From: Natrarchaeobaculum sulfurireducens | GTDB taxonomy: Archaea > Halobacteriota > Halobacteria > Halobacteriales > Natrialbaceae | DNA: 64,000 bases | Direction: 5' to 3' | Assembly (NCBI RefSeq): GCF_003430825.1 | Contig: NZ_CP024047.1 | Location: 1,550,001-1,614,000 of the forward strand | Shown: positions 5,640 through 59,055 of the stretch, in pieces | How the letters are laid out: the number at the start of each line of letters is the position of its first letter | Position numbering within the stretch: the stretch's first letter is position 1 | Program-made: the position numbers and the translations under genes | Notes under the pieces: generated by a model | Told to the model about the DNA's origin: nothing | The model's database searches: none | The model's input: the letters and a program-made list of their open reading frames with translations, nothing else

Positions 5640-6452
5640 TCAATTCACCGCGTCGGCTGGATCGACGACCTCGCCCGTCGCGGGATAGACGCCGATCTGG
5701 TCGCAAAGATCCCCCATCGGACATGCGTCGGGGTCTTCGAGACACGCTGGCTTGCGCGCCGTGCAGTAGTCCCGGCCGAACTGGATCGTCGCCGTATGCC
5801 CGAAGCCACACTTCGCCGCGGGCACCTCACGCTCTAGTACCTCGCGAACCGCCTCGTGATCGGCGTCGGCCGGCGCGATCCCCAGCCGACGATAGATCCG
5901 GTGGACGTGCGTATCGACCGGAAAGACGCCCACACGACCACCGGCGAACAGCAACACGCAGTCGGCGGTTTTTGGACCGACGCCACGGACCTCGAGGAGT
6001 GTCTCACGGACCGCCTCTGGATCCTCGTCTTTGACGAATACATCGAACGCCGCAGCGGAGTCGAACTCCTCGAGGATCCACTCGGCAGTGTCGATCAGGA
6101 TTTCGGATTTCTGGTTGTACAGTCCTGCGGAACTGATAGTCGCTGCGAGCGTGGCCTGTTCGGCGGCTGCGAGCGATTCGGCGAGATCAGCGTCAGGTAC
6201 ATCGTAGCGTTCGACCAATGCGTCGTGGGCCGGCTGGCTGGCCTTGTCGCTCGTGTTCTGACTCAGGATAGTCCGGACGAGACAGGTGACGGCGTCCCGT
6301 CCGCCGTAGCGCTTTTGCCAGTACAACTGGCCGAGACGGTCAACGACGCGTTCGGCGCGCGTATCGGCCGTCGCAGGATCGAACTCGGCGACGACACCGC
6401 CACCAGCCTCGCCACCACTGATGTTGACCGCAGGCTCTGGATCCTCGCTCAT
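5640..6452 (-). CDS. nth: Endonuclease III (DNA glycosylase/AP lyase)
   Basis: A 270-residue base-excision repair enzyme that removes oxidised pyrimidines and nicks abasic sites. The helix-hairpin-helix is LEVRGVGPKTAD with catalytic lysine K161; the catalytic aspartate is D180 in PVDTHVHR. A C-terminal iron-sulfur motif uses C230, C237, C244 and C250. The spacing is C-x6-C-x6-C-x5-C rather than the classical C-x6-C-x2-C-x5-C, meaning a four-residue insertion in the cluster loop. The N-terminal 25 residues are a Gly-rich extension. It lies 98 bp from bluB; its upstream side carries the dispersed repeat at 6491-6574. Confidence 0.93.
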   Translation of the reverse strand: MSEDPEPAVNISGGEAGGGVVAEFDPATADTRAERVVDRLGQLYWQKRYGGRDAVTCLVRTILSQNTSDKASQPAHDALVERYDVPDADLAESLAAAEQATLAATISSAGLYNQKSEILIDTAEWILEEFDSAAAFDVFVKDEDPEAVRETLLEVRGVGPKTADCVLLFAGGRVGVFPVDTHVHRIYRRLGIAPADADHEAVREVLEREVPAAKCGFGHTATIQFGRDYCTARKPACLEDPDACPMGDLCDQIGVYPATGEVVDPADAVN

Positions 6453-6490: not shown

Positions 6491-6574
6491 TATGGTAGCC
6501 ACTGCACGTCAGTGCGCACCTGCTCGCCAGACGGATCGGTGATCAGTGTGTGACTCGGTGCAGTTGTTCCTATA
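6491..6574 (+). repeat. Dispersed palindromic intergenic repeat, copy 1
   Basis: This 84 bp stretch matches the reverse complement of 58177-58260 at about 73 of 84 positions by hand alignment (54 of the first 60). It contains the inverted repeat CACTGCACGTCAGTG at 6500-6514 and an imperfect one around 6532-6546. It lies 38 bp upstream of the nth start codon, reading away from the gene. It could be a MITE-like remnant, a structured RNA or a regulatory box. Confidence 0.75.
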
Positions 6575-44804: not shown

Positions 44805-44988
44805 TCGGTCAGCCCGACTCCCAACCCGCTCGAACGCTGTCGACCACGGGAGTCCGATCGGTATGTGAATCGTCCCAGTTGTTACTATCATATGAACTCC
44901 CGTTGGATCGGGCAGCCTGTCGTGTGTCACCATCGGTGATCGTTTCACCAATCGAGCAGGTATCGATACTGCGGGCCAACGATCCGAC

Positions 44989-55397: not shown

Positions 55398-56261
55398 TCA
55401 GTAGAACTCGCGGACGAGGTCCATCGCGTCCTCGGGAGCGCCGTCGGGGATCTCGGACATGTCCTCGGTGACGCCGTGTTGTTCGTGGTACGGCACGGAG
55501 TTTTCGTCCTGGTACATCACGCCCTGATACTCCTTGTCGCTGTCGAGGATGACTTCCTTTGCGGCCTCGTAATCCGATGGATCGTGGCCCGCTTCCTCGA
55601 GGTCGACGAGGTTGTCGCGGAAGTAGTCGTAGGTGTCGACGTCGTTGAACGTGACACAGGGGCTGAAGACGTTGACGAAGCCGAAGCCGTCGTGTTCGAT
55701 GGCCTGCTGGACGATCTCCTGGTGGCGCAGCGCGTCGGAGGCAAAGGACTGGGCGATAAAGGAGGCACCGGAGGCGAGTGCAAGCGCAAGCGGGTTGACC
55801 GGCGGCTGTTTCGGTCCTTCGGGCGTCGTCGAGGTCTCGAAGTCGGACCGCGAGGTCGGCGAAGCCTGACCTTTCGTCAGCCCGTAGATGCGGTTGTCCA
55901 TGACGATGTAGGACATGTCGACGTTTCGGCGAACGGCGTGGACGAAGTGACCGGCACCGATCGAGTAGCCGTCACCGTCGCCACCGGCGACCATGACCTC
56001 GATATCGGGACGGGCCATCTTGACGCCGGTGCCGACGGGGAGTGCACGGCCGTGGACCCCGTGGAGGGCGTAGCTATGCATGTAGGTCCCGATCTTGCCG
56101 GAACAACCGATTCCGGCGACAACGAACGTGTTATCGGGGTCGTTGCCGGTCTCGGCGAGTGCTTTCATCATGCCGTTCATCGTCCCGAAGTCGCCGCATC
56201 CGGGACACCACGTCGGCTGCTTGTCGGATTTGAAGTCGGTGAATCGAACGTCGGAGCTCAT
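55398..56261 (-). CDS. korB: 2-oxoacid:ferredoxin oxidoreductase, beta subunit (KorB)
   Basis: A 287-residue ThDP/iron-sulfur subunit. Cysteines 19, 22, 53 and 203 (WCPGCGDFG, GIGCSGK, FSPC) bind the [4Fe-4S] cluster, and VAGGDGDGYSIGAGHF with MDNRIYGLTKGQ is the Mg-ThDP motif. With KorA it oxidises pyruvate or 2-oxoglutarate to acyl-CoA and reduces ferredoxin, the haloarchaeal substitute for NAD-linked dehydrogenase complexes. KorA and KorB overlap by 4 bp. The 210 bp downstream to the regulator gene show nothing. Confidence 0.94.
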   Translation of the reverse strand: MSSDVRFTDFKSDKQPTWCPGCGDFGTMNGMMKALAETGNDPDNTFVVAGIGCSGKIGTYMHSYALHGVHGRALPVGTGVKMARPDIEVMVAGGDGDGYSIGAGHFVHAVRRNVDMSYIVMDNRIYGLTKGQASPTSRSDFETSTTPEGPKQPPVNPLALALASGASFIAQSFASDALRHQEIVQQAIEHDGFGFVNVFSPCVTFNDVDTYDYFRDNLVDLEEAGHDPSDYEAAKEVILDSDKEYQGVMYQDENSVPYHEQHGVTEDMSEIPDGAPEDAMDLVREFY

Positions 56262-58015
56262 TTGGCTGGTACCTCTGCTGCGAGTTGGTCGGTGATCTCT
56301 TCGGCCAGTTCGTCCGCCTTGAAGCGGACGCCCGTGTATTTGTTAATGCGCTTGACACGGGTAAGCGTGTCGTGCTCGATGAGGTCGGCGAACTGACCCG
56401 TCGCGTTACACTCGACGACGATCACGTCGTCGGCCGCCTCGACCTCGTCGGTCAGGTCCGGCCGTGGGAAGATGTACGGCACCGAGATGACGCGAATGTC
56501 AGTACCCTCTTCCTCGAGGTAGCCGAGCGCCTCGACGAGAGCACCTTCGTTCGATCCCCACGAGATGACGAGGTCGTCAGCGTCGGGGTTACCGAACTCG
56601 CGGTACTCCCAGTCTTCGCGCTCCTGGGCGGTCTCGACCTTACGGTAGCGTTTGTCGACCTGCCGGACGCGCTCGTCCTGGGCTTCGGTTCGCCGGCCGA
56701 GTTCGTCGTGCTCGAGGCCGGTAGACATGTGTGCGCCGTCGGTCGTCCCGGGGATCGCACGCGGGCTGACGCCGTCGTCGGTGACAGCGTGGGCGCGGAA
56801 CCGCCCCTGCTCGTCGAGCCACTCGTCGATGGTGTCGTCGTCGACGAGTTTTCCGCGGTCGATCTCGACTGCGTCCATGTCGAACGCCTCCGGCGGGAAC
56901 GTCTGTTCGGTCACCGACATCGCGAGGTCGGAGACCAGGAACACCGGCGTCTGGTACTTCTCGGCTAAGTTGAACGCCTCGATGGTCTTCCAGAAACACT
57001 CGGTGATCGAGGTGGGAGCAACGACGAATCGCGGGACCTCGCCGTGGCCACCGTAAAGCGCCATGTTGAGGTCGCCCTGTTCTTGCTTCGTCGGCATTCC
57101 CGTCGACGGGCCGGATCGCTGGACGTCACAGATGACCATCGGCGTCTCGCTGGTGGCAACGAGGCCGAACGTCTCGGTCATCAGGTCGATCCCGGCACCC
57201 GACGTTGCCGTCATCGATCGCGCGCCGGCTCGAGCGCCACCGAGGGCCATGTTGATCGCCGACAGTTCGTCCTCGGCCTGGACGACGTGGCCGCCGTACT
57301 CTTCGATACGGCCCGTCAGGTACTCCATGATCGTCGTCGCGGGCGTGATCGGATAGCCAGCGTAGAAGCGACAGCCAGCAGCCAGCGCACCCATCCCGAT
57401 CGCCTCGTTCCCGTTGAGCAGGACGTAGTCGTTGTCCGTCGTCTCGAGGTCGTACCCGAGGTGATCTAAGTCGTAGTTCTCCTCGACGTACTCCTCACCG
57501 AGTCGGGCTGCCTTCTTGTTGTTCTCGACGATCTTCGAGCCTTTGCCGCCAAAGCGCTTCTCGAGGGCTTCGTCTAAGTACTCGACGTCGAAGTTCGCGA
57601 TAGCACAGGCCGCACCGAGCGCGACGACGTTGCGCATGATGGCGCCACCGGCGTCTTCGGCCAGCGACTTCAGCGGGACGTCGACCGCGGTCATCTCGTC
57701 GGGGATTTCGGCTTCCCAGGAGCGTTCGCCGTCGTAGATGATGGCGCTACCCTCGTGGAGCTCGTCCAAGTTCTCGTCGATCGTCCGCTGGGTCAGCGCG
57801 ACGAGAACGTCGAGTCTGTCGACGACGCTCTGGATGTCGTCGACGGACGTGCGAATCTTGTACGCGGTGTACCCCCCACGGATTCGCGATGCGAAGTCTT
57901 TCGACGTGTATACGTGCCGTCCGGCTCTGGATAGTGCCTGAGCGAAGATTTTCCCGGTGGAGTCGATCCCGTCTCCGGCCTCGCCTCCGATCGCCCAGTT
58001 GAGGTCCTCAGCCAT
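56258..58015 (-). CDS. korA: 2-oxoacid:ferredoxin oxidoreductase, alpha (fused gamma-alpha) subunit (KorA)
   Basis: A 585-residue subunit in the two-subunit arrangement: an N-terminal gamma domain (MAEDLNWAIGGEAGDGIDSTGK, residues about 1-190) fused to the alpha domain with MGALAAGCRFYAGYPITPAT and GPSTGMPTKQEQGDLNMALYGGHGEVPR. The late domain ends IEHDTLTRVKRINKYTGVRF. It binds CoA and the oxoacid and passes electrons to KorB. Two-subunit enzymes occur for both pyruvate and 2-oxoglutarate; specificity not resolved. ATG 58015 is the family start. Confidence 0.94.
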   Translation of the reverse strand: MAEDLNWAIGGEAGDGIDSTGKIFAQALSRAGRHVYTSKDFASRIRGGYTAYKIRTSVDDIQSVVDRLDVLVALTQRTIDENLDELHEGSAIIYDGERSWEAEIPDEMTAVDVPLKSLAEDAGGAIMRNVVALGAACAIANFDVEYLDEALEKRFGGKGSKIVENNKKAARLGEEYVEENYDLDHLGYDLETTDNDYVLLNGNEAIGMGALAAGCRFYAGYPITPATTIMEYLTGRIEEYGGHVVQAEDELSAINMALGGARAGARSMTATSGAGIDLMTETFGLVATSETPMVICDVQRSGPSTGMPTKQEQGDLNMALYGGHGEVPRFVVAPTSITECFWKTIEAFNLAEKYQTPVFLVSDLAMSVTEQTFPPEAFDMDAVEIDRGKLVDDDTIDEWLDEQGRFRAHAVTDDGVSPRAIPGTTDGAHMSTGLEHDELGRRTEAQDERVRQVDKRYRKVETAQEREDWEYREFGNPDADDLVISWGSNEGALVEALGYLEEEGTDIRVISVPYIFPRPDLTDEVEAADDVIVVECNATGQFADLIEHDTLTRVKRINKYTGVRFKADELAEEITDQLAAEVPAK

Positions 58016-58416
58016 GTTAGGCCGAACCTTGCTCCCCACAAATGAAAAGGCTTCTGAAACCCTTACCGACCGACCCACTCGAGCGAATTGTTAACACGCT
58101 TAGAGGTAAACAACCAGGCCAGATCCAGGGAGAGGTAGCTCGATCATCGGGTGTCCGCTGTCAGCGGTTCGTCGCCCATAGTAACAACTGCAACGAGTTG
58201 TACACTGATCGCCGATCAGTCTGGCGAGCAGATGCGCACTGACGTGCAGTGGCTCCGATAGCTATCTCGGCTCGGCGAGCAACTTCAGGCGCACGATGAC
58301 TCACACTATTACGGATACGATAACGACCCACCATGACTCGAGGTCTCATACAACTACCGCTGGGGTCGAACCGCGCGAACGAAATCACTTTTCGGCCAGC
58401 GACCCAACCCACCGAT
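58016..58416. other. Divergent intergenic region korA / flavoprotein, 401 bp, with a repeat
   Basis: It contains the promoter of korA on the minus strand (a T-rich stretch about 25-50 bp upstream), the dispersed repeat copy 2 at 58177-58260, and an A-rich/T-rich promoter (CGAAATCACTTTTCGG, 58379-58394) 23-38 bp before the flavoprotein ATG 58417. No gene is visible. Confidence 0.7.
58177..58260 (-). repeat. Dispersed palindromic intergenic repeat, copy 2
   Basis: Reverse complement of this stretch matches 6491-6574 at about 73 of 84 positions. It holds the inverted repeats CACTG-ACGTG-CAGTG at 58237-58251 and CTGATC-GCC-GATCAG at 58205-58219, and beyond its edge CCGCTG-T-CAGCGG at 58155-58167. 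As in copy 1, the end nearest the downstream-oriented gene is the same end of the element. Confidence 0.75.
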
Positions 58417-59055
58417 ATGGAAGGAACTCCCGTGACTGTCGACGACGTACGCGAAGTCGGGTCGGACACCGTTGCACTCGAGCTCGAGACACCCAACGAT
58501 TTCGATGCACTACCCGGCCAGTTCGTCCTGCTCCGTGCCGCCCCCGAGGGGGAGGAAGTCGCCCGTCATTACACGCTCTCGTCGCCTACGGTCGCCGAGA
58601 CGTTCGAACTCACCGTCGGCATCGATCCCGATGGCGACCTCTCGCCGTGGCTCGCCGACCTCGAGGGCGGCGAAACCGTCCACATGGAAGGCCCCTTCGG
58701 CACGATCACCTACGAAGGCGACGGTGAGGTGGTCGCGATCGCTGGCGGCCCCGGCGTCGGTCCTGCGGTCTCGATCGCCGAAGCCGCCCAGGAGGCAGGT
58801 CACGACGCCGTCGTGATCTATCAGGACGACGACCCCGCACACGAAGATCGCCTCGAGGCACTCGAAGCGTCCGGCGTCGCCGTCTACGTGCTTGCAGCCG
58901 ACGCCAACGACGAACTGGCCGACGCCATCGCGAGCCACGTCGACGACGGTCAGGTGTACGCGTTCGGCTTCGCCGACTTCGTGACGGGCGTCACCGAGAC
59001 GATCGAAGACGCTGGTGGCGATCCCGACGACGCGTTGATCGAGAACTTCGGCTAA
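58417..59055 (+). CDS. Ferredoxin-reductase-type FAD/NAD(P) oxidoreductase
   Basis: A 212-residue flavoprotein of the FNR superfamily. The FAD-binding motif VARHYTLSSP (residues 48-57), the beta-barrel GPFGTITYEG and the nucleotide-binding AIAGGPGVGPAVSIAEAA (108-125) are present; it ends IENFG. There is no iron-sulfur domain, so it is the reductase partner of a separate ferredoxin. Start ATG 58417 has a promoter 25-38 bp upstream. Its position between korAB and the second ETF locus fits a role in exchanging electrons between ferredoxin and NAD(P)H. Confidence 0.87.
   Translation: MEGTPVTVDDVREVGSDTVALELETPNDFDALPGQFVLLRAAPEGEEVARHYTLSSPTVAETFELTVGIDPDGDLSPWLADLEGGETVHMEGPFGTITYEGDGEVVAIAGGPGVGPAVSIAEAAQEAGHDAVVIYQDDDPAHEDRLEALEASGVAVYVLAADANDELADAIASHVDDGQVYAFGFADFVTGVTETIEDAGGDPDDALIENFG

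Follow-up and report, generated by a model that had tools for sequence, protein, structure and literature searches.

A dispersed 84-bp intergenic repeat of Natrarchaeobaculum sulfurireducens as a probable IS630/Tc1-mariner-type MITE of haloarchaea

The window analysed here, a stretch of 64,000 nucleotides from Natrarchaeobaculum sulfurireducens, contains two full-length copies and one decayed half copy of an intergenic repeat (Table 1). Copy 1 is located upstream of nth (ORF 5640-6452, minus strand, HhH-GPD), 38 bp from its start, while copy 2 sits in the gap between two divergent genes and upstream of both, with a 2-oxoacid:ferredoxin oxidoreductase (ORF 56258-58078, minus strand) on one side and a FAD-binding oxidoreductase (ORF 58333-59055, plus strand, possible internal start at 58418) on the other. 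As reported in a preliminary description of this DNA, copy 1 and the reverse complement of copy 2 (58177-58260) are identical at 73 of 84 positions without gaps. Both were recovered by the family profile, copy 2 with an E value of 5e-25, and a lone match to CAGTTGTTACTAT noticed earlier near position 44873 proved to be real, forming part of the decayed half copy. The span given for copy 1 takes in, on either side, a TA presumed to be duplicated, with a C and a G lying outside it. Effects of the copies on the neighbouring nth or oxidoreductase gene are possible.

Table 1. Copies of the repeat in the window and the terminal inverted repeats of copy 1
Feature	Coordinates	Strand	Basis
Putative MITE copy 1, full length (TATGGTAGCC...TTCCTATA)	6491..6574	+	Profile, E 8e-27
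Left terminal inverted repeat, copy 1	6491..6507	+	Column conservation; family consensus matches IS630-A ends
Right terminal inverted repeat, copy 1 (TATAGGAACAACTGCAC, - strand)	6558..6574	-	Column conservation; IS630-A ends
Putative MITE copy 2, full length	58177/58178..58260	-	Opposite orientation to copy 1
Third copy, decayed right half, contains CAGTTGTTACTAT	44846..44888	+	Profile, E 5e-5

The preliminary description had proposed a search for further copies in this genome and in relatives, naming their absence as what would count against it, and many were found. The host copy number, about 70 on the chromosome, was estimated by pattern matching and BLAST. A 25-base pattern allowing up to three mismatches gave 71 chromosomal matches versus 0 for the reversed-pattern control, and BLAST of the host genome (3.79 Mb, three contigs) scored 40 places of 84 candidates. 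Among the matches listed, all host copies lay on the chromosome (contig C3) and none on the smaller contigs C1 and C2 (about 267 kb together), in contrast to the plasmids of Natrialba magadii, which carry many copies. Of 80 relatives, the element was detected in 33, which with few exceptions belong to one family including N. magadii; Natrialba, Natronorubrum, Natrinema, Natronococcus, Halobiforma and Natronolimnohabitans are among the genera represented. It is present, too, on plasmids of Haloarcula hispanica, Halomicrobium and Halostella, which suggests some horizontal spread. No copy was seen in phage records and viral contigs at the sensitivity used.

Edges and columns were defined from an alignment of 228 full-length copies. 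Conservation runs sharply from C^TATAG to CTATA^G (the caret marks the edge), the flanks being otherwise near random, and the relatedness of flanks between copies ends one base beyond each side. The unit measures 80-86 bp, the exact figure depending on the inclusion of the flanking C/G and of the TA presumed to be duplicated. It is bounded by imperfect terminal inverted repeats (left TATAGTAGCCACTG, right TATAGTAACAACTG), the terminal repeat feature of MITEs being visible as TATAGTAGCCACTGCA / TATAGTAACAACTGCA, and it contains no gene, 84 bp being too short for a transposase; it is thus short, multicopy and non-coding, as MITEs are. The internal dyads pointed out in the preliminary description are there, but they are minor and poorly kept in relatives, and the main symmetry runs end to end, the entire unit being foldable into one imperfect hairpin. 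The same termini also enclose different or expanded interiors, giving total lengths of 118-372 bp. In long versions at L198, L211, L263, L266, L219, L282 and L290 (196-372 bp in all), the apical loop holds arrays of another hairpin repeat (GCGCGGTTCGGAGCGA...GAGAACCGCGG). A palindromic stub, GTAGCCACTGCACGTCAGTGGCTAC, at host locus L129 (~1496-1530) resembles two fused left ends of the element, and at L150, L154 and L188 two units abut directly (ACTATAGTAG), which suggests that one unit inserted at the terminus of another already in place.

Insertion polymorphism with empty sites, a feature of MITEs, was present in four filled/empty comparisons, all of which are consistent with 82 bp having been added at a 2-bp site. 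The only perfectly clean empty site between species was that of Natronorubrum thiooxidans and N. sulfidifaciens, where, within flanks about 90% identical, the filled CTC[TATAG..CTATA]ACTC (84 bp) is matched by the empty CTC-CA-ACTC and the site reads CA, not TA. Paralogous stretches lying close together in the host gave filled GTT[..]GTAG versus empty GTT-TA-GTGG, and a second Natronorubrum empty site also read TA, with extra sequence on one side. In a genome of the same genus (G003) the element interrupts a different short repeat, and an uninterrupted copy of that repeat reads TC at the site. Clean empty sites were rare in the cross-species flank comparisons because intergenic DNA had diverged. 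The check for target-site duplication proposed in the preliminary description thus gave sites of TA, TA, CA and TC; a TA duplication is not formally proven, since a duplication-free insertion between T and A yields the same string. Across the 228 copies, each column of the terminal TA, on either side, is conserved in 80-93% of copies, with C preceding in 71% and G following in 63% (CTAG), the other flanking positions being near random. Such a CTAG preference is a feature of IS630/Tc1-mariner elements, and the title of Tenzen and Ohtsubo (1991), as cited in PMC2170065, states that IS630 prefers TA in CTAG. IS630/Tc1-mariner transposons are suggested by this preference together with the presumed TA duplication (PMC2170065).

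A search for the catalytic domain PF13358 identified an IS630 group, designated group A (IS630-A), of 1061 bp in about ten genomes, both ORFs of which match NCBIfam IS630. Its ends read C^TATAGTA(A/G)NCGTTAGAA on both sides, its target is CTAG/TA, as for the MITE, and its two ends favour GTAG and GTAA respectively, a difference also seen in the MITE. Over the 17 terminal bases, the MITE ends are identical to the IS630-A consensus at 13/17 and 12/17, and of the 2381 TA sites in the window, not one scored as well as the MITE ends against the IS630-A end profile. The match of ends to an autonomous transposon that characterises MITEs is partial rather than exact: the likeness does not extend beyond roughly the 17 outermost bases, of which four or five differ. 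No autonomous parent with the exact 14-base MITE ends was recovered in an orphan-end scan of the fetched loci or among all TATAGTARNCRYT sites in G046, a Natronolimnohabitans sp. The latter genome carries an intact IS630-A together with identical MITE copies, which are recent, and in N. magadii (L309) an IS630-A has inserted into a MITE copy at an internal CTAG with duplication of TA. Among 58 host copies no pair exceeded 95.2% identity, and these copies look old, like decaying relics. No intact IS630-A was found in the host, where contig C2 retains an 80-bp remnant of an IS630-A end, including an intact terminal repeat; remnants also occur in the same-genus genomes G001, G002 and G003. The presence of IS630-A does not track MITE copy number, G012 and G017 having IS630-A without the MITE and G003, G007, G008 and G011 the MITE without an intact IS630-A. 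Because this association across genomes is loose, group A is a likely but unproven helper, and its chances of being the actual one are put at about even; the case for some helper of IS630 type is stronger, and other helpers in haloarchaea are possible.

Two further observations concern IS630 elements. Several places in G045 (contigs C1, C6, C7, C9, C11 and C16) match IS630-A over no more than its outermost 127 bp or so and are possibly IS deletion derivatives or composite elements. A second short palindromic repeat, CTAGTACCGTTCCAGGCG...GGACCGCCACTAG, is present at L135 (~1085-1175), at L139 and in the flanks of L327 and L341, with only two weak matches in the host. The MITE has inserted into it in L139 and IS630-A at its end CTAG in L341, and the flanks or ends of IS630 group D (L327/L329) share TAGTACCGTTCCAGGCG with it; it is possibly another IS630-linked MITE.

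The preliminary description had also offered a small RNA family or a regulatory box as explanations, having noted that both full-length copies lie upstream of a gene and read away from it. That arrangement did not hold across the other copies. With a simple codon-bias ORF caller, 69 of 72 host copies examined fell outside predicted ORFs, in gaps that were codirectional (30), divergent (22), convergent (14) or undetermined (3), and no gene-position or orientation bias of the kind shown by a terminator or promoter element was apparent among the 72. With divergent, codirectional and convergent gaps all occupied, the regulatory box found no support, nor did the small RNA family, given the decaying appearance of the host copies, the lack of gene-position preference and an Rfam scan of the window that returned two tRNAs only and no match to the MITE. 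Copy 2 was not found at the orthologous gap of either same-genus genome in which that gap was located, the gap being too diverged for the exact site to be read. A structured RNA or regulatory element useful to the host and under selection (terminator, sRNA or transcription-factor site) would fit the strong hairpin of copy 1 (z -4.2) and the compensatory C-G/A-T changes at several pairs, which amounted to 256 doubly changed cells versus a shuffle maximum of 160. However, copy 2 barely folds better than its shuffles (z -1.5), neither the 3' nor the 5' side of genes is preferred, and the paired changes mostly divide two subfamilies, as is expected of inverted repeats. The proposed check for compensatory changes thus rose above random re-pairing but not clearly above controls in which the pairs were slid by 2 columns, which gave similar double-change counts, and the changes were for this reason not taken as evidence of RNA function. 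A host-useful element of this kind is accordingly considered extremely unlikely, and selfish DNA surviving where little harm is done is the simplest reading. That the family has been kept across the archaeal family with its hairpin co-opted by hosts (e.g., in transcript processing or as a DNA cruciform) and its apical loop used to house interchangeable cargo (84 to ~370 bp, same arms) is a long shot.

Other mobile repeats were also weighed. GTAG tags define bacterial REPs (PMC3733652), and a REP/REPIN-like identity, in which a RAYT-type tyrosine (Y1) transposase moves inverted pairs of hairpins tagged with GTAG, is brought to mind by a short palindromic intergenic repeat with GTAG near one end, whose left end consists of GTAG followed by the small dyad CACTGcacgtCAGTG and whose inverted right end consists of GTAA plus CAACTgcaccgAGTTG. 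Unlike in GTAG-type REPs, however, the symmetry here is terminal, the target is TA/CTAG and there is no Y1 transposase association, none of the host's three Y1 transposases having a copy within 1.5 kb. In many relatives the local dyads are disrupted (CAGTG to CATTG, CAATG or CACTG), and within the left arm conservation is lowest at position 22, whereas pairing between the two ends persists. Conservation begins outside GTAG, a motif accounted for by the IS630-A end, TATAGTAG. With neither a conserved GTAG-adjacent stem-loop nor an associated RAYT (Y1) gene, REP/REPIN membership was rejected as very improbable. A small mobile repeat (SMR) of the Haloquadratum kind would have inverted repeats, no target duplication and an unknown helper other than IS630. 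The resemblance to HqIRS40-43 and 55 is real in size (80-110 bp), inverted repeats, lack of a long duplication, multicopy state and haloarchaeal host (PMC3119063), and the movers of those repeats have been called enigmatic (PMC3119063). SMRs are nevertheless defined by ends common to no known transposon, and SMR-A target IS605/PATE elements, whereas the ends described here resemble those of IS630-A and the target is CTAG/TA, which makes this identity unlikely.

With the multicopy state, boundaries, empty sites, IS630 end similarity and target preference all observed, the best explanation, at a probability of about 0.8, is that each copy is a non-autonomous IS630/Tc1-mariner-type MITE moved in trans by an IS630 transposase. 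The suggestion of a MITE-like element in the preliminary description is thus supported by the copy number, the inverted repeats at the ends, the empty sites, the TA target and the matching IS630 transposon. The proposed MITE body, about 80 bp between duplicated TA, would comprise two imperfect inverted-repeat arms and a short variable apical loop, and would be non-coding. Transposase from an IS630-family element that shares the outer ends (TATAGTA...) would act in trans, binding both MITE ends and excising the MITE, presumably by cut-and-paste chemistry as in ISY100 (PMC2170065). Reinsertion would occur into TA, preferably within CTAG, with duplication of the TA. Intergenic copies would be tolerated and then decay in place, and in the host, where the copies appear old, the likely helper would be left only as a remnant.

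Plant Stowaway MITEs are short, have a TA target and are moved by mariner-type transposases. The likeness of the present family to these mariner-linked elements (PMC6881990) lies in those properties; they are eukaryotic, however, and no common ancestry is claimed. The closest reported archaeal case is the IS630-family MITE of Methanosarcina mazei, which is 89 bp long, has ISMma9 as its partner and is present in 5 copies in one species (PMC3852290). Likened by description, it is archaeal, of almost the same length, has an IS630 partner and bears inverted repeats, but it differs from the family described here in copy number (5 in one species versus about 70), and the latter is spread through a haloarchaeal family. 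A literal sequence search of papers, covering few subscription journals, returned no published description of the sequence, and the family is a previously unlisted one of an ordinary kind. Its identification as a probable MITE accounts for a dispersed repeat that, between the genes of this haloarchaeal family, could otherwise be taken for a regulatory element or an RNA, and its tie to a concrete transposase group provides a testable helper for a haloarchaeal MITE.
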